41,812 nt of DNA from an uncultured Spirochaetaceae bacterium. GTDB taxonomy: Bacteria > Spirochaetota > Spirochaetia > Sphaerochaetales > Sphaerochaetaceae. The notes beneath the pieces were generated by a model that was not told where the DNA came from, did not search any database, and saw only the letters and a program-made list of their open reading frames with translations. The position numbers and the translations under genes are program-made. Of the stretch, positions 23,583 through 32,305 are shown in pieces. The DNA lies in assembly GCA_944392975.1 (NCBI GenBank), contig CALXYN010000018.1, positions 1-41,812 of the forward strand. The letters are read 5' to 3'. How positions within the stretch are numbered: the stretch's first letter is position 1; the number at the start of each line of letters is the position of its first letter.

Positions 23583-23891
23583 TTACTGTCTTATTTCAAC
23601 GTCCACACCTGCAGGGAGTTCAAGTTTCATCAGGGCTTCTACTACCTTCTGCGTGGGATCGAGAATGTCAATCAGTCTCTTGTGTGTTCTCATCTCGAAC
23701 TGTTCGCGACTCTTCTTGTCTACATGTGGCGATCTGAGGACAGTATACCTGTTGATACGAGTCGGGAGAGGTACTGGGCCCGAAACTCTGGCACCCGCCT
23801 TCACAACTGTCTGAACGATTGCCCTGGAACTCTGCTCCACGAGCTCAACGTCAAATCCTCTCAGCTTAACCCGGATTCTTTCATTTGCCAT
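23583..23891 (-). CDS. rpsJ: 30S ribosomal protein S10
   Basis: S10 is a 30S head protein that, as NusE, also joins transcription antitermination complexes. The 102 residues include [20 protein letters not shown] at 5-24, [20 protein letters not shown] near 38-57, and [10 protein letters not shown]. It is the first ribosomal protein gene after tuf, beyond a hairpin in the 61-base gap. Confidence 0.97.
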
Positions 23892-23952: not shown

Positions 23953-25143
23953 TTACTCTACGATCTCTGTTACCTGACCGGAAGCAACTGTTCTACCACC
24001 TTCACGAATAGCGAAGCGGAGACCCTTGTCCATAGCAACCGGGTGAATCAGGTCGACATTGATTGATGTGTGGTCACCAGGCATAACCATTTCCTTTCCT
24101 TCTGGAAGGTGAACAGTTCCTGTGATATCAGTTGTTCTGAAATAGAACTGTGGTCTGTATCCATCGAAGAATGGGGAGTGTCTACCACCCTCTTCCTTGG
24201 AGAGAACGTATACAGTTCCAACGAACTTCTGGTGAGGTGTGATTGAATTTGGCTTTGCAAGAACCTGACCACGGACAACTTCCTTCTTGTCGATACCGCG
24301 GAGGAGTGCTCCGATGTTATCGCCTGCCTGTCCTTCGTCAAGGATCTTGTTGAACATCTCAACACCTGTAACAACTGTGTTCTGTGTTTCCTTGATACCA
24401 ACAATCTGTACTGGGTCGTTTACGTGAATAACACCGCGCTCTACTCTACCTGTAACAACTGTTCCACGGCCAGAGATTGAGAAGATGTCCTCGATTGGCA
24501 TGAGGAATGGCTGATCAACAGCTCTCTCCGGAAGTGGGATGTAGCTATCCATAGCATCAAGAAGCTCATCGATGCACTTTGTAGCCTCTGGGTTATCCGG
24601 CTGTGTCATAGCAAGGTATGCAGAACCTCTGATAACAGGAGCATTAGCACCATCGAAACCATACTCTGTGAGAAGGTCTCTCATCTCTTCCTCTACGAGG
24701 TCAATGAGCTCTGGGTCATCTACCTGATCGCACTTGTTGATGAATACGATGATTGCTGGAACACCAACCTGGCGAGCAAGGAGAAGGTGCTCTCTTGTCT
24801 GTGCCATAGCGCCATCTGTTGCAGCAACAACGATGATAGCACCATCCATCTGTGCAGCACCTGTGATCATGTTCTTGATGTAGTCAGCGTGGCCCGGGCA
24901 GTCTACGTGTGCGTAGTGTCTGTTCTTGGACTGATACTCAACGTGTCTTGTGTTGATGGTGATACCACGAGCCTTCTCTTCCGGTGCATTGTCAATTGCA
25001 TCGTAAGCAAGGGCCTTGTCACCGAACAGCTTTGCACAATGCATTGTGATTGCAGCTGTAAGGGTGGTCTTGCCGTGGTCGACGTGACCGATCGTACCTA
25101 CGTTTACATGTGGCTTCGTTCTTTCGAATTTTTCCTTAGCCAT
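23953..25143 (-). CDS. tuf: Elongation factor Tu
   Basis: EF-Tu brings aminoacyl-tRNA to the ribosome as a GTP complex. The 396 residues match the family exactly. The P-loop is GHVDHGKT (19-26), the switch region has RGITI at 59-63, and DCPGH (81-85) and NKCD (136-139) complete the G domain. The two beta-barrel domains follow, with RTTDITG and the C-terminal [12 protein letters not shown]. It heads the S10-spc-alpha genes, an arrangement known in spirochaetes. A hairpin of seven base pairs directly precedes its AGGAGG ribosome binding site. Confidence 0.98.
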
Positions 25144-25384
25144 CAGTTCCTCCTTGTGGCCTGTGCCACAAAAAACAAAGATATCTTATAAAGGCCCATG
25201 CCTTTATATTCTCAGAGACAGCTGATTGCGTCAGGAATCAAAGGGTTTCCAGCGGTCGGCAGGTACAAGCCTGACGACAATGGTCATATTTCTAAAAAAG
25301 ACCGGTCCGGAACCACCTTATCGCCATCGGCAATCGGTTTGGCTCTTCTGTCCAACGCACCCCAAAAGGGCATGGTCAGACACC
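25144..25384 (-). promoter_or_regulatory. Long structured 5' leader of the tuf operon
   Basis: About 240 bases separate the promoter from the tuf ATG, and several stems can be drawn by eye on the minus strand. One is a 7-bp pairing (GTCTGAC with GTTGGAC) near 25379-25348. AAGGTGG with an ACC/GGTCTT side is followed by six T, near 25320-25294, and looks like an attenuator. CGTCAGG pairs with CCTGACG across about 25 bases (25278-25225). TATAAAGGC/GCCTTTATA is a perfect 9-bp stem (25208-25187). TTGTGGC/GCCACAA (25171-25154) touches the ribosome binding site. No known riboswitch or ribosomal-protein leader class is recognised. Confidence 0.5.
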
Positions 25385-25390
25385 TTGACT

Positions 25391-25419
25391 AATTTACATA
25401 AACGCAAATTCTTTGTCAA
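25391..25419 (-). promoter_or_regulatory. Promoter of the tuf-S10-spc-alpha unit
   Basis: On the minus strand TTGACA (25419-25414), 17 bases, then TAAATT (25396-25391). A start near 25384 follows. The -35 box is perfect and the region upstream is rich in A/T, including a ten-A run at 25503-25512, which could act as an UP element. Confidence 0.8.
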
Positions 25420-25420
25420 C

Positions 25421-26397
25421 AGTTTTTCATTTCTTTTCAATAAAATAAATTATCTCGGCATTAAAGGTCATGAAACATATCACAGCACATACCAATACAT
25501 GTAAAAAAAAAAGAATTCTTTACGCGCGCGCGTTCAATAAATAGCATTCTGAAAGCGAACTTCTCGGCATGACAAACTTCAAGCCTCTGCAGCAGCTGCA
25601 CCCCGCCCTTCTTTCTATATAAGTAAATTACAAGCACAAGGAAATCAGCTGACGATCCATCAATGCTCGTCCAGGCATTGCTATCTCAGCTCAACACTGA
25701 AGAAGAAAGAAGACTGTATTTATGGAATGTTTTATACAGGCTGTGTGTCCGATGTATTTAGAAAAGCATACGGTAATAGCACTTGCCAAACTGTATATTG
25801 TAATCAGGCACCACCCACACCTTTACACTATTGAACATCTGGAACCACCTTGATGTCGAAATATAAATAATCTTCTCTCCCTGCTCGAAAAAGAAACCTT
25901 CCGAGCAACCATTCTTCATGAATGGATTATCATTCTGCCATAAACCTTCCCAAGTGCTTTTTTCGATGATTGCACTCAGACTATAGAATGCCTGATTACA
26001 AACACTGCAATAATATCATAGATGCAAAACCCAACATCGTTATCATGCTGCCATGACTACATTCAGTTATCGCCCTTTATCGTGATTGACTTTGTGTTAT
26101 TAGGCAATCAGCAGATCTTCTCCAAAGAGTTGAAACTAATCAATGTGCGCCTCAAGAAGGATCATGTAGTACATTTCTGGCCTCTTCTGCTCCTCCGGCA
26201 ATAACTATGCCTAATTCAATCTATGGCTCATTTTCAATCGGCACAATGGCTTGAGATTACCAATTCACTTACTTGTTATTGTATTTGTAAATATTCCTTA
26301 TTTGGACTATATAATTTAATTATAATATCGTACTTAAAAATAAAATGTAAAACCTAATTACTTACATAAGAAATAAATAAGACATTTCATAGAAATA
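25421..26397. other. Intergenic relic region upstream of tuf
   Basis: Nearly 1 kb with no intact gene. It contains a ten-A run (25503-25512), an alternating 12-bp ACGCGCGCGCGT (25522-25533), and short coherent open stretches on both strands: plus 25639-25761, ending in a cysteine/arginine-rich stretch, and minus 25758-26015 and about 26217-26150. Base composition turns very A+T-rich at 26280-26395. These look like pieces of decayed genes; no transposase motif was recognised. Confidence 0.4.
25758..26015 (-). pseudogene. Unrecognised gene fragment with aromatic and cysteine-rich residues
   Basis: The minus strand is open for 85 codons between a TGA (26018-26016) and a TAA (25760-25758). The translation has a zinc-ribbon-like start (YYCSVCNQAFY) and later STWEGLWQND, FFFEQGEKIIYI and VKVWVVPDYNIQFGK, a composition typical of real protein. 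The only ATG (25919) gives 53 residues and has no ribosome binding site, so the piece is probably the end of a lost gene. I cannot assign it to a family. Confidence 0.3.
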
Positions 26398-26700
26398 ATG
26401 CCTCCATCCCAAGCTTTTATTATTCCTATAGTGTTCAAAGGCATCAAACACCTACTGGATGTCAGGAAGACTGAAGCTGCATTCTCTCCATTCTCAAAAC
26501 AGCAGATACTCAGTCTGGACGAAAAGCTCTTTGCTCTCAGGAGAGGCAATGGTAACGGATCAATAACAGCCGTAATAAACGTCAGTGGCGATTATATTTC
26601 CATCGATACTGGTACAAGCGGAACAGATATCCTTACAGGCGAACATCTTGAAAGCAAGACAACGCTTTCTCCGTATCAGGTGAGATGGATCAGACATTAA
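26398..26700 (+). pseudogene. C-terminal fragment of a GH13 sucrose-phosphorylase-like enzyme
   Basis: From about residue 12 of this 100-codon frame the sequence reads like the end of the sucrose/glucosylglycerate phosphorylase branch of glycoside hydrolase family 13. It has KGIKHLLDVRKTEAAFSP, then EKLFALRRGNG, a short INVSGDYISID strand set, DILTGEHL, and a final SPYQVRWI. Complete enzymes are about 480-560 residues with a catalytic barrel, none of which is seen. The ATG at 26398 has no ribosome binding site. It ends one base before the first of two direct repeats, suggesting the gene was cut there. Confidence 0.55.
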
Positions 26701-26879
26701 GAGTAAGGGTCTGTTATACGAGAAAATGCCAATTGCCCATAAGGGCCGGGAGACCTATTGGAAAGGCTGGGAAAGCTATGAGAAAAGCAGTCCCAGCCTT
26801 TCTTTCCATACTCATGCCCAGAAAAACACAGAGTTGCATCATATTGGATCAGACCTGTGATACTAGAGGTCTTGAAGTT
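26701..26879 (+). repeat. Direct repeat copy A flanking the toxin-antitoxin pair
   Basis: About 179 bases match 27570-27748 over their whole length, by eye at roughly 80-85 percent, starting at GAGTAA and ending at AGAGGTCTTGAAGTT. A shared core includes ACGAGAAAATGCCAATTGCC and CCATACTCATGCCCAGAAAA. Inside each copy AAGGCTGG and CCAGCCTT form an inverted repeat that could fold as a hairpin. No coding frame is shared convincingly. Confidence 0.85.
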
Positions 26880-26936
26880 GTGGATTGAATGATATCCGAT
26901 ATGGATATACAATCTTTATCGGATAGGGAGATGAAA

Positions 26937-27203
26937 ATGATTGCAACCGTTTCAAAATGGGGAAACTCACTCGGAATAAGGGTTCCCTCCGACATAACAG
27001 CGGCAACAGGAATCAGTGAAGGCGACAAGGTCGAGATTACGAGCCGGAGCGATGGGAGCATCATCATACGGAAGAAAAAGAAAGATGTAGCACAGCTGAA
27101 AGCTTTCGGGGCGCTGCACCGATATGCGAATCCTGATCTCATTCAGCTTGAAAACAAGGCTTTCGGGATGGCTATGGAAGAGAAATACGGGAAGGGCAAG
27201 TGA
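26937..27203 (+). CDS. AbrB/MazE-type antitoxin, partner of the PIN toxin
   Basis: The product is 88 residues from the ATG at 26937. The N-terminal half is the swapped-hairpin AbrB/SpoVT DNA-binding fold: MIATVSKWGNSLGIRVP, then GISEGDKVEI and GSIIIRKKKK. The C-terminal half (AFGALHRYANPDLI onward) would bind the toxin. The AGGGAG at 26925-26930 fits the ATG at 26937 with six bases; an ATG at 26931 abuts it and starts further upstream do not fit. The toxin start overlaps the stop codon, as in VapBC and related pairs. It would repress its own promoter, probably in 26880-26930. Confidence 0.85.
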   Translation: MIATVSKWGNSLGIRVPSDITAATGISEGDKVEITSRSDGSIIIRKKKKDVAQLKAFGALHRYANPDLIQLENKAFGMAMEEKYGKGK

Positions 27204-27571
27204 TGTATATCGATACCAACTATCTTCTCCGGTATATGCTCAATGACATCCCGGAACAGTCTGAAAAGGCGGCGGAAGCGATAGCGGAAGGCGCTGCAAT
27301 ATATCCAGAGATAGTCCCGGAAGCTGTATATGTCCTGCATAAGATATACGGGATAGGACGCAAGGATGTCGCGTCTGCTCTTATTGATGTACTTGATGAC
27401 GTCGATGTGGAAAGAAAGGAACAGATAAGGGAAGCCCTGATACTTTTCAAAGAGACCAGACTGGACTATGTGGACTGCCTTCTCCTGGCAGGATTCCTGT
27501 CAGGGAAAAACGATTTTGTCACGTTCGACAAGAAACTCAGGAACAAGAAGAATTCTTTATCCAATAATTGA
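27203..27571 (+). CDS. PIN-domain ribonuclease toxin (VapC-like)
   Basis: The 122-residue protein is a PIN domain. The four acidic residues expected at the metal site are present: Asp4 in YIDTN, Glu40 in IVPEAVYVL, Asp91 in YVDCLLLA and Asp109 in VTFDKKL. Such toxins cleave tRNA or rRNA when the antitoxin is lost. The ATG overlaps the antitoxin TGA by one base (TGATG); a GTG at 27200 is an alternative. The last codons reach the edge of the second direct repeat, so the repeat may have replaced the original C-terminus. Confidence 0.85.
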   Translation: MYIDTNYLLRYMLNDIPEQSEKAAEAIAEGAAIYPEIVPEAVYVLHKIYGIGRKDVASALIDVLDDVDVERKEQIREALILFKETRLDYVDCLLLAGFLSGKNDFVTFDKKLRNKKNSLSNN

Positions 27572-27748
27572 GTAAAGGGCTGCTGTACGAGAAAATGCCA
27601 ATTGCCAATAAATGACAGGGAGGCCTATTGAAAAGGCTGGAAAAGCTATGAGAAAAGCAGCCCAGCCTTTCTCTCCATACTCATGCCCAGAAAAATACAA
27701 AATTGCAGCATACTGAATCTGACATGTGATGCCAGAGGTCTTGAAGTT
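27570..27748 (+). repeat. Direct repeat copy B flanking the toxin-antitoxin pair
   Basis: Second copy of the 179-base repeat, in the same orientation as 26701-26879 and 869 bases from it. It begins within the last two bases of the toxin stop codon. Differences between the copies are scattered substitutions and a few one-base gaps, so the duplication is not very recent. On the minus strand the internal stem CCAGCCTTTTC could help end transcription. Confidence 0.85.
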
Positions 27749-27902
27749 TAGGTTTCTTTGCGGGGAGATCGTTTTTCCAGGAGCCGAATCTAAGCTGACT
27801 CTTTCTCGTCCAGCAGTGAATACCAAAAGGGACTGTACACTCGTCCATCTTTTCTGTTTTCTCATGCAACAGCCCCATTTTCCTCATCAATTCTGTTAGT
27901 CC

Positions 27903-29645
27903 TTAGTTACGAACAAACGCAGTTATCACCTTTATCTCACCACCTGCAGATTTCACTTTGTATCTCTTTACTGATGAAGGAATGATGAAGGTTTCTGCAT
28001 AATGCACTGTAAATGGTTCAAATTCTCCATCAAAGCTTTCAATGACAGCTTCCTTTCCATCTACAAGATTGCAGACATGCATACTGTCACCCATAGTCAC
28101 AGAATAAGAACGGTCTGTTGTATAACGTTCTGTCTCAATGAATTCAAGGCTATGAAGTCCTGTATGCTCCTTCTTGTACCCATCACAGCATTCCAGTGTT
28201 TTTTCCTGGTGTACAAGGTTGTTCATGACCCATTCGGTTGTGCGGTTGAACTGAATATTATTCATACCATGTTCAATATGAATCGGGCGTGGAAGGCCAT
28301 CTAGCCCCACTCTGCCCCAATCCCAGAGCTTGAATGTGAAAATATAAGGCGTTGCGCTTATTTCCAAAACCATTGTGTCTGCACCGGAACAATGAACAGT
28401 ACCAGCAGGAATCAGAATGTGATCATGTTTCTTAACCGGAACCTTGTTAACATACTTCTCTGCAGGGAACATGATTTCGCCTTTCTGTGCACGTTCAAGG
28501 TCCCTCTTCATCTCATCCTTATCAACACCATCTTTCAAACCAATATACACACATGAATTCTCCTTTGCATCGAGGATGTAATAGCTCTCATCCTGCGTAT
28601 AATGCATACCGAATGTCTTCTGTATATACTCAGTCAGAGGATGCACCTGCAAGGAAAGATTCTGTCCATCCATTGTATCTAGAAAGTCAAACCGGATAGG
28701 GAATTCACGGCCAAACCTTGCAATATTCTTAGCTCCGAGGAATGGTTCAGGATATGTCAGAATCATATCCATCATAGGTAGTGAGACAAAGTCATCACCG
28801 AATTTGAGATTTATGCAATTTTCCTCAGGGACCCCATCAAAGCTCCAGGCATAGTTTTCCTCTTCGGGGGGAAGAGAGCAAACATGCTTCATCCACTGAC
28901 CGCCCCAGACCCCCGGATCGAAATACGGTTCCATCCTGAATGGTTTATGACTGGCCTGATCCATAGCTGTAAAAAAAGCTTCTGCAGGAATCATCTTGGG
29001 CTGTTTCTCATTGTTTGTATCAACGATGTAATCCATATGATGAAACAGCTTGTCTTTATGCTTGTCAGCAAGTCTCCACTCTATGAAATAGCCTCTTTTC
29101 ACCTTTGCAAGGACTGCATCTGAAGGATTGTCTGCAAGCCAGTTTGTATCGCCTCTTCTATACCTGAGCTGGCATTCCCATCTGTTGAGGTCAAAATATA
29201 TTGAAATATCTCCAGCTGTAATCAGGGAAGCTCCACAGCCTATCACAAGAATGATACCGCTTTCGGTTTCATCAATCTCTTCTGCAATAGTCTTGAGCTT
29301 TTCCTTATCAAAGCATGCTTTTATCTCTTTTGATGTCATGTATGCAAATACTCTGTCATCAGAGAGATAATCTCGGAAGATATCATCAAGCTTCTCATAT
29401 GGGAAAAGTGCATTATCAGAAAAAACCGTCAGCGCAGGTTTCAGTCCGGCAAGGCCGTCGGCAATTGTTTCTGCTTTCACGCCTGGATATAAATCGCAGA
29501 CAACCACCGTTTTTTCACGGTTACCCACACATTTCTGTATTTCCATGCAGATAGCGTCATATCCGGAAATGACTGCTCCATCATACCCTTTGACGGTTGT
29601 CATCGGATGAAGATCATAATTTGAGTAAGTATGGTATTCATACAT
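27903..29645 (-). CDS. Two-domain class I mannose-6-phosphate isomerase
   Basis: The enzyme interconverts mannose-6-phosphate and fructose-6-phosphate with a zinc ion. The metal site of the cupin-like ManA domain is complete: Gln333 and His335 in SLQVHPLTEY, Glu353 in QDESYYIL and His418 in AGTVHCSG. It spans roughly 235-580. Residues 1-215 form a separate domain that resembles the uridine-kinase-like part of long PMIs, but no P-loop lysine or serine pattern is visible (VIGCGASLI in its place), so it is probably not a kinase. Total 580 residues, against about 320-390 for plain ManA. It overlaps the upstream ROK gene by eight bases, so the two form one operon for hexose use. Confidence 0.85.
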   Translation of the reverse strand: MYEYHTYSNYDLHPMTTVKGYDGAVISGYDAICMEIQKCVGNREKTVVVCDLYPGVKAETIADGLAGLKPALTVFSDNALFPYEKLDDIFRDYLSDDRVFAYMTSKEIKACFDKEKLKTIAEEIDETESGIILVIGCGASLITAGDISIYFDLNRWECQLRYRRGDTNWLADNPSDAVLAKVKRGYFIEWRLADKHKDKLFHHMDYIVDTNNEKQPKMIPAEAFFTAMDQASHKPFRMEPYFDPGVWGGQWMKHVCSLPPEEENYAWSFDGVPEENCINLKFGDDFVSLPMMDMILTYPEPFLGAKNIARFGREFPIRFDFLDTMDGQNLSLQVHPLTEYIQKTFGMHYTQDESYYILDAKENSCVYIGLKDGVDKDEMKRDLERAQKGEIMFPAEKYVNKVPVKKHDHILIPAGTVHCSGADTMVLEISATPYIFTFKLWDWGRVGLDGLPRPIHIEHGMNNIQFNRTTEWVMNNLVHQEKTLECCDGYKKEHTGLHSLEFIETERYTTDRSYSVTMGDSMHVCNLVDGKEAVIESFDGEFEPFTVHYAETFIIPSSVKRYKVKSAGGEIKVITAFVRN

Positions 29646-30525
29646 TTTGCTGACCTCCCCTTTTCATTGCCTGAAACAATCCCTGAAAAACGCGTAGAGA
29701 TGTATCAAGTTCAATATGTATTTTTATATTCCTATCAAGACACAATGCAGAAATCTGCTTTGAGAAGAACCTGAATGATTTCGATATCTGTCCTGCAAAC
29801 ACAATCATGTCAGGCTTAAATGAATCGACAAATGGTCTGACAGCAGCTTCAAGATTTGCTCCAAATTCATCAAAAAGAGAAAGAGCCCTTCCATCTCCAG
29901 AAGAAGCAAGTTCATCAAGAAGACGACCAGCAACATCATGGCCAAAGTATCTGACTGCCAGTTCTGACTGGCCTCTTGCAGAGATATAATCATCGATGAT
30001 TGAATCCTTGAAAGGGTAATTATATATCCACCCGTCCGCTGGTATCCCGAGTGTCTGATCTGCAGAACATCTGTCATTTACAACAAAAGCAGAACCAGCT
30101 CCAGTTCCAATGACAACAAACATTATTTTTCCTGTCTTTCCAGAAACAGTTGATGCGTATCCTTCTGCAAAGGCGGCAACATCATGCAAGAATACTGTCC
30201 GTGCTGATGACAGCTTGCTATCAAGCAGTCCGGAAAGACCTTCCATGACAGGAATTCCATAGATTGAATCGTATTTACCGATACCTTGCATGAGGCTTAT
30301 TCCTTTCTCATAGTCAAAGGGGCCGGGAAATGCGAACCCTATGCCATCACATCTCTCAGCCTTTTCAGCCTCCATTGCTATTACAGAAGCAATGTTTCTG
30401 AAGATTGTATCTTTATCTGCAGAAGACATTGAAGGATGCTCTGAAATCGTTCCCAGAAGCTGTCCGCTTTCATTGATTATTCCGGATTTGATATTAGTTC
30501 CACCTGCATCAAGCATTACATACAT
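29638..30525 (-). CDS. ROK-family sugar kinase-like protein
   Basis: The 295-residue product has the ROK/ASKHA fold: the ATP phosphate-1 loop DAGGTNIKSG (6-15), the sugar-site loop FAFPGPFD (65-71), Asp115 in HDVAAFAEG at the usual catalytic-base position, and the phosphate-2 loop VIGTGAGSAF (138-147). No helix-turn-helix precedes it, so it is the kinase type and not a repressor. The ROK zinc motif (CxCGxxGC) is absent: the place after the phosphate-2 loop reads LGIPADGWIYNY. The substrate may be a hexose such as glucose, fructose or N-acetylmannosamine; pairing with the isomerase suggests mannose or fructose metabolism. Confidence 0.8.
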   Translation of the reverse strand: MYVMLDAGGTNIKSGIINESGQLLGTISEHPSMSSADKDTIFRNIASVIAMEAEKAERCDGIGFAFPGPFDYEKGISLMQGIGKYDSIYGIPVMEGLSGLLDSKLSSARTVFLHDVAAFAEGYASTVSGKTGKIMFVVIGTGAGSAFVVNDRCSADQTLGIPADGWIYNYPFKDSIIDDYISARGQSELAVRYFGHDVAGRLLDELASSGDGRALSLFDEFGANLEAAVRPFVDSFKPDMIVFAGQISKSFRFFSKQISALCLDRNIKIHIELDTSLRVFQGLFQAMKRGGQQNV

Positions 30526-30542
30526 GGCAAATCACCCTGTTA

Positions 30543-30562
30543 AATGTTATAACATTATATCA
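30543..30562 (-). promoter_or_regulatory. Extended -10 promoter and 14-bp palindrome of the ROK-isomerase operon
   Basis: AATGTTATAACATT (30543-30556) is a perfect 14-bp palindrome. It overlaps an extended -10 element TGATATAAT (minus, 30562-30554) and lies 17 bases before the ROK start codon. A repressor bound there would block transcription directly. A clear -35 box is not evident, as often with extended -10 promoters. The regulator is unknown. Confidence 0.5.
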
Positions 30563-30607
30563 TTAATAAAAACAAGCATTAGTTTTATCAAAAAAAGAAA
30601 AGCGGAA

Positions 30608-31057
30608 CTAATCTTTCTCCATAAGCCATCTATGCAGGGAGATACCTCTTCTTACCGCAATATCTTCTCTGACAACAGAATATCCCATATGGCTGAAAAA
30701 TGGCTTTGCACAGTCAGAAACATAGACCTGAATGCGTTTATCTGTCATAGCCTCCAATGCTTTCAATAAAACCTTGCCGACGCCTCTTCCCTGATACTCT
30801 GAAGAAACGTAGAGCATATCCAGAAGCCCTGTTTCAGGGAAAATACTGCCAAATCCAAGAAGGCTATTCCCTTCTAATGCACAGATACAATAAGAAGCGA
30901 GCAATGGTTCTGAAAAACTTTCAGGATCAATGTCATCCGGAGCCCAGGCCTCCAGCTGAGAAGGCATATATGAGCTACAGCAGACAGTTCTGACAGTATC
31001 CCTGAAAAGCTTGACGACATCCTCAGAAAGCAATGAGTTGAATCTTTCTATGCGCAC
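30608..31057 (-). CDS. GNAT-family N-acetyltransferase
   Basis: The 149 residues hold the acetyl-CoA-binding motif A in strand-turn-helix form: LLDMLYVSSEYQGRGVGKVLLKAL, with the Q/R-G-x-G loop QGRGVG at 89-94. The end with FFSHMGYSVV matches the usual motif B region. The acceptor (an amine of a small molecule, peptide or protein) is unknown. It is divergent from the TSCPD gene with 46 bases between the two starts, which must hold both promoters. No link in function to the ROK-isomerase operon is evident. Confidence 0.85.
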   Translation of the reverse strand: MRIERFNSLLSEDVVKLFRDTVRTVCCSSYMPSQLEAWAPDDIDPESFSEPLLASYCICALEGNSLLGFGSIFPETGLLDMLYVSSEYQGRGVGKVLLKALEAMTDKRIQVYVSDCAKPFFSHMGYSVVREDIAVRRGISLHRWLMEKD

Positions 31058-31103
31058 TTGCTCCTCTCCTTATCTTCAGTTATCTTACATCGAGGAGATG
31101 ACA

Positions 31104-31355
31104 ATGAGAACAATAGAATATAAGACACAAGGAACATGTTCCAAAATGATTACATTTGAACTCGATGATGACAACAGAATCCACAATCTGAAGTTCAATG
31201 GAGGATGCAATGGGAATCTGCAGGGAATAGGAAAACTTTGCGAAGGGCAGAAAGCAGAGGATGTGATGGAAAGGATAAAAGGAATCAGATGCGGCTTTAA
31301 ACCGACATCATGCCCTGACCAGTTATCAAAAGCAATTGCAGAAGCTCTTAACTGA
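31104..31355 (+). CDS. TSCPD-domain protein (TIGR03905 type)
   Basis: The 83-residue product is cysteine-rich (Cys12, 35, 46, 63, 70) and ends in the name-giving motif TSCPD at 68-72, with GGCNGNLQGI at 33-42. The domain also occurs at the C-terminus of B12-dependent ribonucleotide reductases, where its cysteines bind metal. The function of the free-standing protein is unknown; metal binding is inferred. GAGGAG at 31092-31097 fits the ATG at 31104, whereas the ATG at 31098 directly abuts it. A strong terminator follows. Confidence 0.85.
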   Translation: MRTIEYKTQGTCSKMITFELDDDNRIHNLKFNGGCNGNLQGIGKLCEGQKAEDVMERIKGIRCGFKPTSCPDQLSKAIAEALN

Positions 31356-31359
31356 AAAT

Positions 31360-31386
31360 AATCCCTCACATGAGGGATTTTGTTTT
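31360..31386. terminator. Bidirectional terminator after the TSCPD gene
   Basis: AATCCCTCA (31360-31368) and TGAGGGATT (31371-31379) pair and are followed by TTTTGTTTT on the plus strand. On the minus strand the stem is followed by ATTTTC, so it may also end transcription of the converging small gene, whose stop codon lies at its edge. Confidence 0.85.
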
Positions 31387-31721
31387 CAGATATTAATTCC
31401 TCTTGCAGTCATGAACGCCACAAAATCATTATAGATTGATATGTCTGCAATGACCTCCTCACCATCAAGCGCTATTCCCTGGCACGAAGTGAGGGCAATG
31501 AAATCAGGGACGGTGATTACTTCATCCTTATCAGCTCTTTCAAAGAGATATGGTACGCTGGATTCGCGAAAGCTTTCATTACCATTACGTCTTTCCCAAT
31601 CCGTTATCATGGCGACAGTAGAGCGCTGAGAAAGCCATCCTTCAATCTCTCTCATAGGGTTCCTGATAAAACGACGTGCGTAAGCTGTCAGGGAATAATA
31701 ATCATCATAATCGGGAATCAT
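31386..31721 (-). CDS. Small protein with a possible KilA-N-like segment
   Basis: The product has 111 residues from the ATG at 31721, chosen because GAGGAGG lies five bases upstream; an earlier start at 31757 would reach into the rpsG terminator region. It begins acidic and tyrosine-rich (PDYDDYYSLTAYARRF), then has GWLSQRSTVAMITDWERRN, which resembles the WL-R-T-FI-WE core of KilA-N/phage antirepressor domains. The second half (VPDFIALTSCQGI) resembles their later part only weakly. It is a lone gene squeezed between rpsG and the TSCPD gene. The identity is uncertain; a DNA-binding role would be inference. Confidence 0.55.
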   Translation of the reverse strand: MIPDYDDYYSLTAYARRFIRNPMREIEGWLSQRSTVAMITDWERRNGNESFRESSVPYLFERADKDEVITVPDFIALTSCQGIALDGEEVIADISIYNDFVAFMTARGINI

Positions 31722-31763
31722 AAAGCCTCCTCTACAAATAATACCACAAGAGAACAAAAATAC

Positions 31764-31787
31764 ACTGAGCCCGTAAAATTACAGGCT
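31764..31787. other. Inverted repeat after the rpsG terminator
   Basis: TGAGCCCGTAA and TTACAGGCTCA form a near-perfect inverted repeat (one C/A mismatch) of 24 bases, between the rpsG terminator and the small leftward gene at 31386. It may be a second, back-up stem ending ribosomal transcription or an operator for the small gene. Confidence 0.4.
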
Positions 31788-31792
31788 CAAAT

Positions 31793-31814
31793 AAAAAGCC
31801 TCCCCGAAGGGAGG
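31793..31814 (-). terminator. Terminator of the rplJL-rpoBC-rpsLG unit
   Basis: CCTCCC (31799-31804) and GGGAGG (31809-31814) form a short stable stem, which on the minus strand has the TTCG tetraloop. A five-T run follows (31797-31793). It stands 20 bases after the rpsG stop codon and shows that transcription ends here and does not continue into tuf. Confidence 0.9.
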
Positions 31815-31834
31815 TTTTATAAGTGTCCTGAAGA

Positions 31835-32305
31835 CTACCAGCGGAAGTGGCTGAATGCCTTGTTTGCATCTGCCATTCTGTGTACATCTTCCTTCTTCTT
31901 GAAAGCTGCACCAGTGGAGTTGTAAGCATCCATAAGCTCTGCTGCAAGCTTATCGCTCATGCTCTTACCGTTGCGGGCGCGAGCAGCTGCAATAATCCAG
32001 CGCATTGCAAGTGCTTCTCTTCTTTCTTCCCTGATCTCAACAGGAACCTGATATGTAGCACCACCTACACGTCTTGACTTGACCTCAACAACAGGCTTTA
32101 CATTGTCGACAGCCTTTGTGAAGATATCAAGCGGATTCTCACCACTCTTATCACCGAGTTCCTGCATTGCTGTATAAAGAATGCGTGTAGAGACACTCTT
32201 CTTACCATCAAGCATCATGCGGCAAATGAACTTCTCGACAACTGTGCTGTGGTAAATCGCATCTGGGGTAGCCTTTCTGGCTGGAGCTTTTCTATCTCTT
32301 GACAT
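31835..32305 (-). CDS. rpsG: 30S ribosomal protein S7
   Basis: S7 nucleates assembly of the 30S head and contacts E-site tRNA. The 156 residues have [20 protein letters not shown] near 25-44, the beta-hairpin with [14 protein letters not shown] at 79-92, and the C-terminal helix with [20 protein letters not shown]. In many bacteria fusA follows rpsG; here a terminator does. Confidence 0.97.

Follow-up and report, generated by a model that had tools for sequence, protein, structure and literature searches.

To our knowledge, the way in which the S10 operon is controlled has been worked out in some gammaproteobacteria only, where it depends on the ribosomal protein uL4, and how most phyla regulate this, their largest ribosomal-protein operon, is unknown. 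The Escherichia coli S10 leader is a long structured 5′ untranslated region (UTR) bound by uL4. Leaders of other ribosomal-protein genes, including those of L20, S15, L1 and S8, form junctions or irregular hairpins whose bulges are invariant, and each is restricted to certain bacterial groups. In the str operon of E. coli (rpsL-rpsG-fusA-tuf), translational feedback by uS7 acts through a site between rpsL and rpsG, and operons of this kind are usually governed through feedback by a ribosomal protein (PMC10931766).

Here we consider the leader of tuf, the gene for EF-Tu, in a 41,812-nucleotide stretch of DNA (the window) from an uncultured Spirochaetaceae bacterium (GenBank assembly GCA_944392975.1, contig CALXYN010000018.1). 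The leader is likewise a long structured 5′ UTR before S10 ribosomal-protein genes, in the same gene neighbourhood as the uS7 site, and it has what ribosomal-protein leaders generally have, a conserved and covarying structure in the 5′ UTR of a ribosomal-protein operon. Judged by comparison among genomes, it is a real, conserved RNA structure with clear covariation. We propose, with a probability of roughly 0.6, that it controls translation of the tuf-S10 operon through feedback, probably by binding a ribosomal protein that the operon encodes.

The core hairpin of the leader

The core of the leader is a hairpin, P2, in which a variable outer helix (P2′) is followed by an AA bulge, ACC/GGU pairs, an R/NA internal loop and a variable inner helix, P2a (Table 1). 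Among 77 distinct sequences in an alignment fitted to the structural model, both sides were changed at 6/6 pairs of P2a, and at three of the six in a MAFFT alignment not fitted to structure. Double-changed cells numbered 203, compared with 47 ± 9 after shuffling and at most 44 in controls with slid partners; the alignment behind this count is biased towards the model by its fitting, but this does not account for the covariation, since both controls stay far lower. The outer helix varies in sequence among families while its pairing is kept: for the 40 leaders with a 3′ flank that starts with something other than TTC, the mean energy was −6.1, against −4.8 ± 0.3 for permuted partners, and none of 300 permutations was as good. 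A strict P2 descriptor fits 84/124 regions upstream of tuf, 1/2,480 shuffled regions and 0/124 reverse strands. It also fits two families (f12, L136; f21, L040) in which AA-ACC-G..A-GGU is retained and the flanking helices have been exchanged by compensation. Over at least 17 families the unpaired AA, the R/NA loop and the ACC/GGU pairs are conserved, while the helices on either side are replaced.

The whole leader is about 240 nucleotides (nt) long, running on the minus strand from a transcript start that would lie at about 25384, judging by the position of the promoter, to the tuf ATG at 25143. The TTGACA of this promoter is identical in 33/33 sequences of the genus. The minimum free energy (MFE) of the leader is −86 kcal/mol, compared with −73.5 kcal/mol in shuffles (z = −2.5; 4/200 shuffles equally good). 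As this is only moderately better than the shuffles, the case rests on comparison among genomes, which supports at least seven stems.

The initial annotation of the window had described a strong promoter followed by about 240 non-coding bases with at least five stems, one of them a perfect 9-bp stem and another touching the tuf ribosome binding site, ahead of some 14 kb of translation genes. These descriptions are borne out. It had also seen here a candidate for an undescribed regulatory RNA resembling no known leader class, to be checked by conservation and covariation across spirochaetes; both are present, and the leader withstands the check. Rfam gave no match at the gathering cut-off in the window and 14 class loci, and only chance-level matches below it. 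A literature search turned up no description of a tuf leader in spirochaetes, and neither a review of ribosomal-protein regulation nor a Borrelia transcriptome paper mentions one.

Table 1. Coordinates of the tuf leader and adjoining genes in the window
Feature	Position	Strand	Description	Basis
Promoter	25391..25419	−	−35 TTGACA 25419-25414; −10 TAAATT 25396-25391; spacing 17 nt	good sigma-70-like
P1 hairpin	25350..25381	−	5′ end of transcript	MFE; fast-varying in relatives, yet hairpin-forming (judged by eye)
P2 core hairpin	25309..25345	−		class-wide conservation and covariation
P2 outer helix (P2′)	25345-25341 / 25314-25310	−	GAGCC / GGTTC	
P2 AA bulge	25340-25339	−	AA	
P2 ACC/GGT pairs	25338-25336 / 25317-25315	−	ACC / GGT	
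P2 internal loop		−	G/AA in the window; class pattern R/NA	
P2a inner helix	25334-25329 / 25325-25320	−	ATTGCC / GGCGAT	
P3 three-way junction	25247..25312	−	TTCCGGA 25312-25306 with GCTGGAA 25253-25247; excludes outer part of P2	
P3a hairpin	25282..25303	−	GGTC..GACC; T run 25299-25294 in loop	alignments
P3b hairpin	25255..25278	−	GTCG-T-CAGG..CCTG-C-CGAC	8/8 pairs changed on both sides
ATCAG	25222..25226	−	pairs with CTGAT (25146-25142) overlapping start codon	RNAalifold consensus
TCTC	25215..25218	−	pairs with GAGG of Shine-Dalgarno (25152-25149)	RNAalifold consensus
P4 perfect 9-bp hairpin	25187..25208	−	TATAAAGGC-ATGG-GCCTTTATA	
P5 hairpin	25149..25171	−	TTGTGGC/GCCACAA; Shine-Dalgarno GGAGG immediately 3′	compensatory pairs
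tuf (EF-Tu)	23953..25143	−	first gene of the putatively regulated operon	Pfam
rpsJ	23583-23891		directly after tuf; rplC, rplD and others next	Pfam

Distribution and genomic setting

A DNA search of 60 genomes recovered the leader within the genus, at 71–96% identity where most of it aligns. It is present in 33 of the 36 genus genomes, the remaining three having no assembled tuf, and thus in 33/33 in which the tuf start is assembled. R1, a covariance model built on the core, matched 56/297 genomes of the class, once in each; 55 matches were verified upstream of tuf, and one (L123) has no tuf within its stretch. A smaller model of the core (R2) reaches further families: 20 more places were inspected, of which 15 lie at tuf; the matches without tuf (L209-L212, L214) were treated as chance. 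Sampling of 24 outgroup families placed the core before tuf in 17 and within fusA in one (G050), with five lacking it and one having no assembled tuf start, so that 17 of the 23 open to judgement carry it there. The exact core pattern occurred in 103 stretches from 84,980 species genomes. Among the 80 of these listed, 71 have tuf 100–281 nt downstream and five more are spirochaete loci with no tuf in the stretch, several of which end near the match; the non-spirochaete matches (L230, L232, L237, L280) have no tuf and are about as many as were estimated for chance. From these searches, the core is spread over much of the class Spirochaetia, directly before tuf.

Downstream of tuf in the window, Pfam identifies S10, L3, L4, L2, S3, L14, SecY and RpoA, and rpsJ follows tuf directly in 50/50 loci long enough to judge. 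The window carries rpsL and rpsG at 31.8–32.7 kb (rpsG at 31835-32305). Unlike the uS7 site, the spirochaete element lies before tuf and remains there with rpsG 6.7 kb upstream. Since the leader stays at tuf despite the distance of rpsG, with rpsJ always next, its target would be tuf-S10 rather than rpsG. Members of the class usually have little DNA separating rpsG from tuf; in the window the interval holds unrelated genes (25400-31834), including a GNAT acetyltransferase (30608-31057), a ROK-family protein (29638-30525) and a 580-aa protein with no Pfam or NCBIfam match (27903-29645). In contrast to the E. coli S10 leader, tuf stands first, no terminator was found and the core hairpin was seen in spirochaetes only. 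The core of AA bulge, ACC/GGU and R/NA is also distinct from the leaders of L20, S15, L1, S8 and others.

That the element always lies directly before tuf, and never before another gene, would suit EF-Tu as the ligand, binding its own leader and repressing translation, and the repression would extend to the S10 genes through coupling. We consider this decidedly unlikely, as we know of no EF-Tu autoregulation of such a type; with rpsJ always next, EF-Tu and the ribosomal proteins cannot be told apart on these data.

The core occupies the former place of fusA, a gene now missing from the rpsG–tuf interval in most sampled genomes. Two sampled class genomes keep fusA before tuf, G050 and G043. In G050 (L133, G050:C86) fusA is intact, and its 3′ end contains both halves of the P2 core, in the codons that encode AKPIVL and GGKVV. 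The two halves are separated by about 108 nt and lie in the stretch from about 364 to about 230 nt ahead of tuf; G043 is without core halves, and R2 gives no score to the G050 site. It is hardly credible that the core is merely the decayed 3′ end of a lost fusA with no RNA function: the compensatory changes across families rule out neutral decay and refute a non-functional remnant, and neither the lack of the core in G043 nor the lack of an R2 score in G050 fits it. When leaders were compared with EF-G C-termini they scored no better than shuffled leaders, and the few best matches were the core itself. An origin of the element inside fusA is a separate matter, and from the single case of G050 the element may have arisen there.

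Competing helices and the ribosome binding site

A three-way junction comes after P2 in several families, the window's among them; it consists of P3 (UUCCRGA/UCUGGAA), P3a with its U-rich loop, and P3b. P2′ (GAGCC:GGUUC) and P3 (UUCCGG:CUGGAA) claim one strand (GGUUCCRGA) and are mutually exclusive. The partner strands of both are conserved, and in the window sequence the predicted energies of the P2′ state (−30.7 kcal/mol) and the P3 state (−31.7 kcal/mol) are within 1 kcal/mol of each other. The family in which this competition occurs is probably the Sphaerochaetaceae and their kin. The P3 strand GACCUCUGG is conserved in relatives (window 25257-25249 reads GACCGCTGG) and contains CCUCU, complementary to the Shine-Dalgarno (SD) sequence GGAGG; most sequences keep its U, though the P3 pair of that U forms in only 59% of them. 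CCUCU could be a second anti-SD sequence, freed when P3 opens.

The initial annotation had also placed a stem followed by six T near 25295, and had called it attenuator-like. The six T are there, but they sit in the apical loop of P3a instead of 3′ of a terminator stem. A transcription attenuator, at which a ligand would choose between termination near 25295 and read-through, is consistent with this U run and with the U-rich sequence found at the P3a loop position throughout the genus. It is nevertheless highly improbable: the GGTC..GACC stem around the run is preserved in relatives via changed pairs, the run itself is missing in several families, for example that of G059 (L035), and a terminator scan of the window gave nothing at the T run. 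The leader thus shows no Rho-independent attenuator of the kind found in the E. coli-type S10 leader.

Nearer to tuf, pairing around the start codon shows one clear compensatory case, in L027 (GUCAAU/AUUGAU), and the predicted mean unpaired probability of the SD sequence is 0.19, compared with 0.35 in shuffles. A masked ribosome binding site and a bistable P2′/P3 pair resemble the design of a metabolite-binding riboswitch. That reading is very unlikely, since the element is found only before tuf-S10, with no instance ahead of a gene for metabolism or transport, which sets it apart from known riboswitch classes.

The leader might instead be a passive 5′ UTR, whose hairpins guard the mRNA from decay or fix the level of translation with no ligand. 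P1 at the extreme 5′ end and P5, which presents the SD sequence just after its stem, would both serve this, tuf is usually highly expressed, and the SD sequence is predicted to be partly masked without any ligand. Stability alone, however, needs no core signature that stays constant while its flanks are swapped, and the competition of P2′ with P3 also argues against a passive role, which we regard as unlikely.

A model of feedback control

In the model we favour, the leader is a cis-acting RNA that would control translation of the tuf-S10 ribosomal-protein operon, with feedback at the ribosome binding site, a likeness to the E. coli S10 leader. P2, whose AA bulge, ACC/GGU pairs and R/NA loop are flanked on each side by a helix of free sequence, is the putative site of the regulator, most likely a ribosomal protein of the same operon. 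In the window's family, binding would fix P2 and open P3, and would favour the paired state of the SD sequence and start codon (UCUC:GAGG, AUCAG:CUGAU and perhaps the released CCUCU). An excess of one of its products would then turn down the whole operon.

Several observations weigh against this model. The core is absent before tuf in five families (G041, G043, G048, G052, G053), and the P3, UCUC and AUCAG pairings are conserved in only part of the class, so that the read-out may differ elsewhere. Predicted accessibility of the start codon is no lower than in shuffles (0.33 vs 0.32), and the CCUCU alternative has one mismatch in the window (GACCGCUGG). Sites of ribosomal proteins often show a match to rRNA, and when the core is compared with the rRNA of the organisms themselves, the best matches are at about the shuffled level.

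The S10 operon normally encodes uL22, and the P2 core matches E. coli 23S rRNA 1606-1623 (helix H59a, CCAAACCGACACAGGUGG) exactly. Both have the order AA, ACC, G, loop, A, GGU, with the loop of H59a replaced by helix P2a in the spirochaete leader, and the tip of H59a (A1614) adjoins the uL22 hairpin (PMC6685948). The corresponding 23S sequence of spirochaetes of the class is mostly GCAAACCGACACAGGUAGG, which is not a significant match, and the resemblance therefore stays an unproven lead. A match to 16S rRNA (ACAAACCGGAGGAAGGTGG) was dropped because its ACC, reasoning from the sequence, seems to be otherwise paired there. It is conceivable, if quite unlikely, that the leader represents a new class of ribosomal-protein leader, spread over much of Spirochaetia, whose P2 core mimics H59a. 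A tunnel-lining protein encoded by the operon (uL22, uL4 or uL23) would then recognize this mimic, flip P2′/P3 and shut off translation of the combined tuf-S10 operon, linking EF-Tu level to ribosome assembly, at a site that possibly first arose within the fusA coding sequence.

The leader is a precise and deeply conserved candidate for control of the S10 operon in a bacterial class, combining a core that resembles a protein site with a bistable pair of helices. The five families without the core would be a natural comparison for how this operon is regulated. One leader over both tuf and S10, if the model is true, would couple the supply of elongation factor to the supply of ribosomes.
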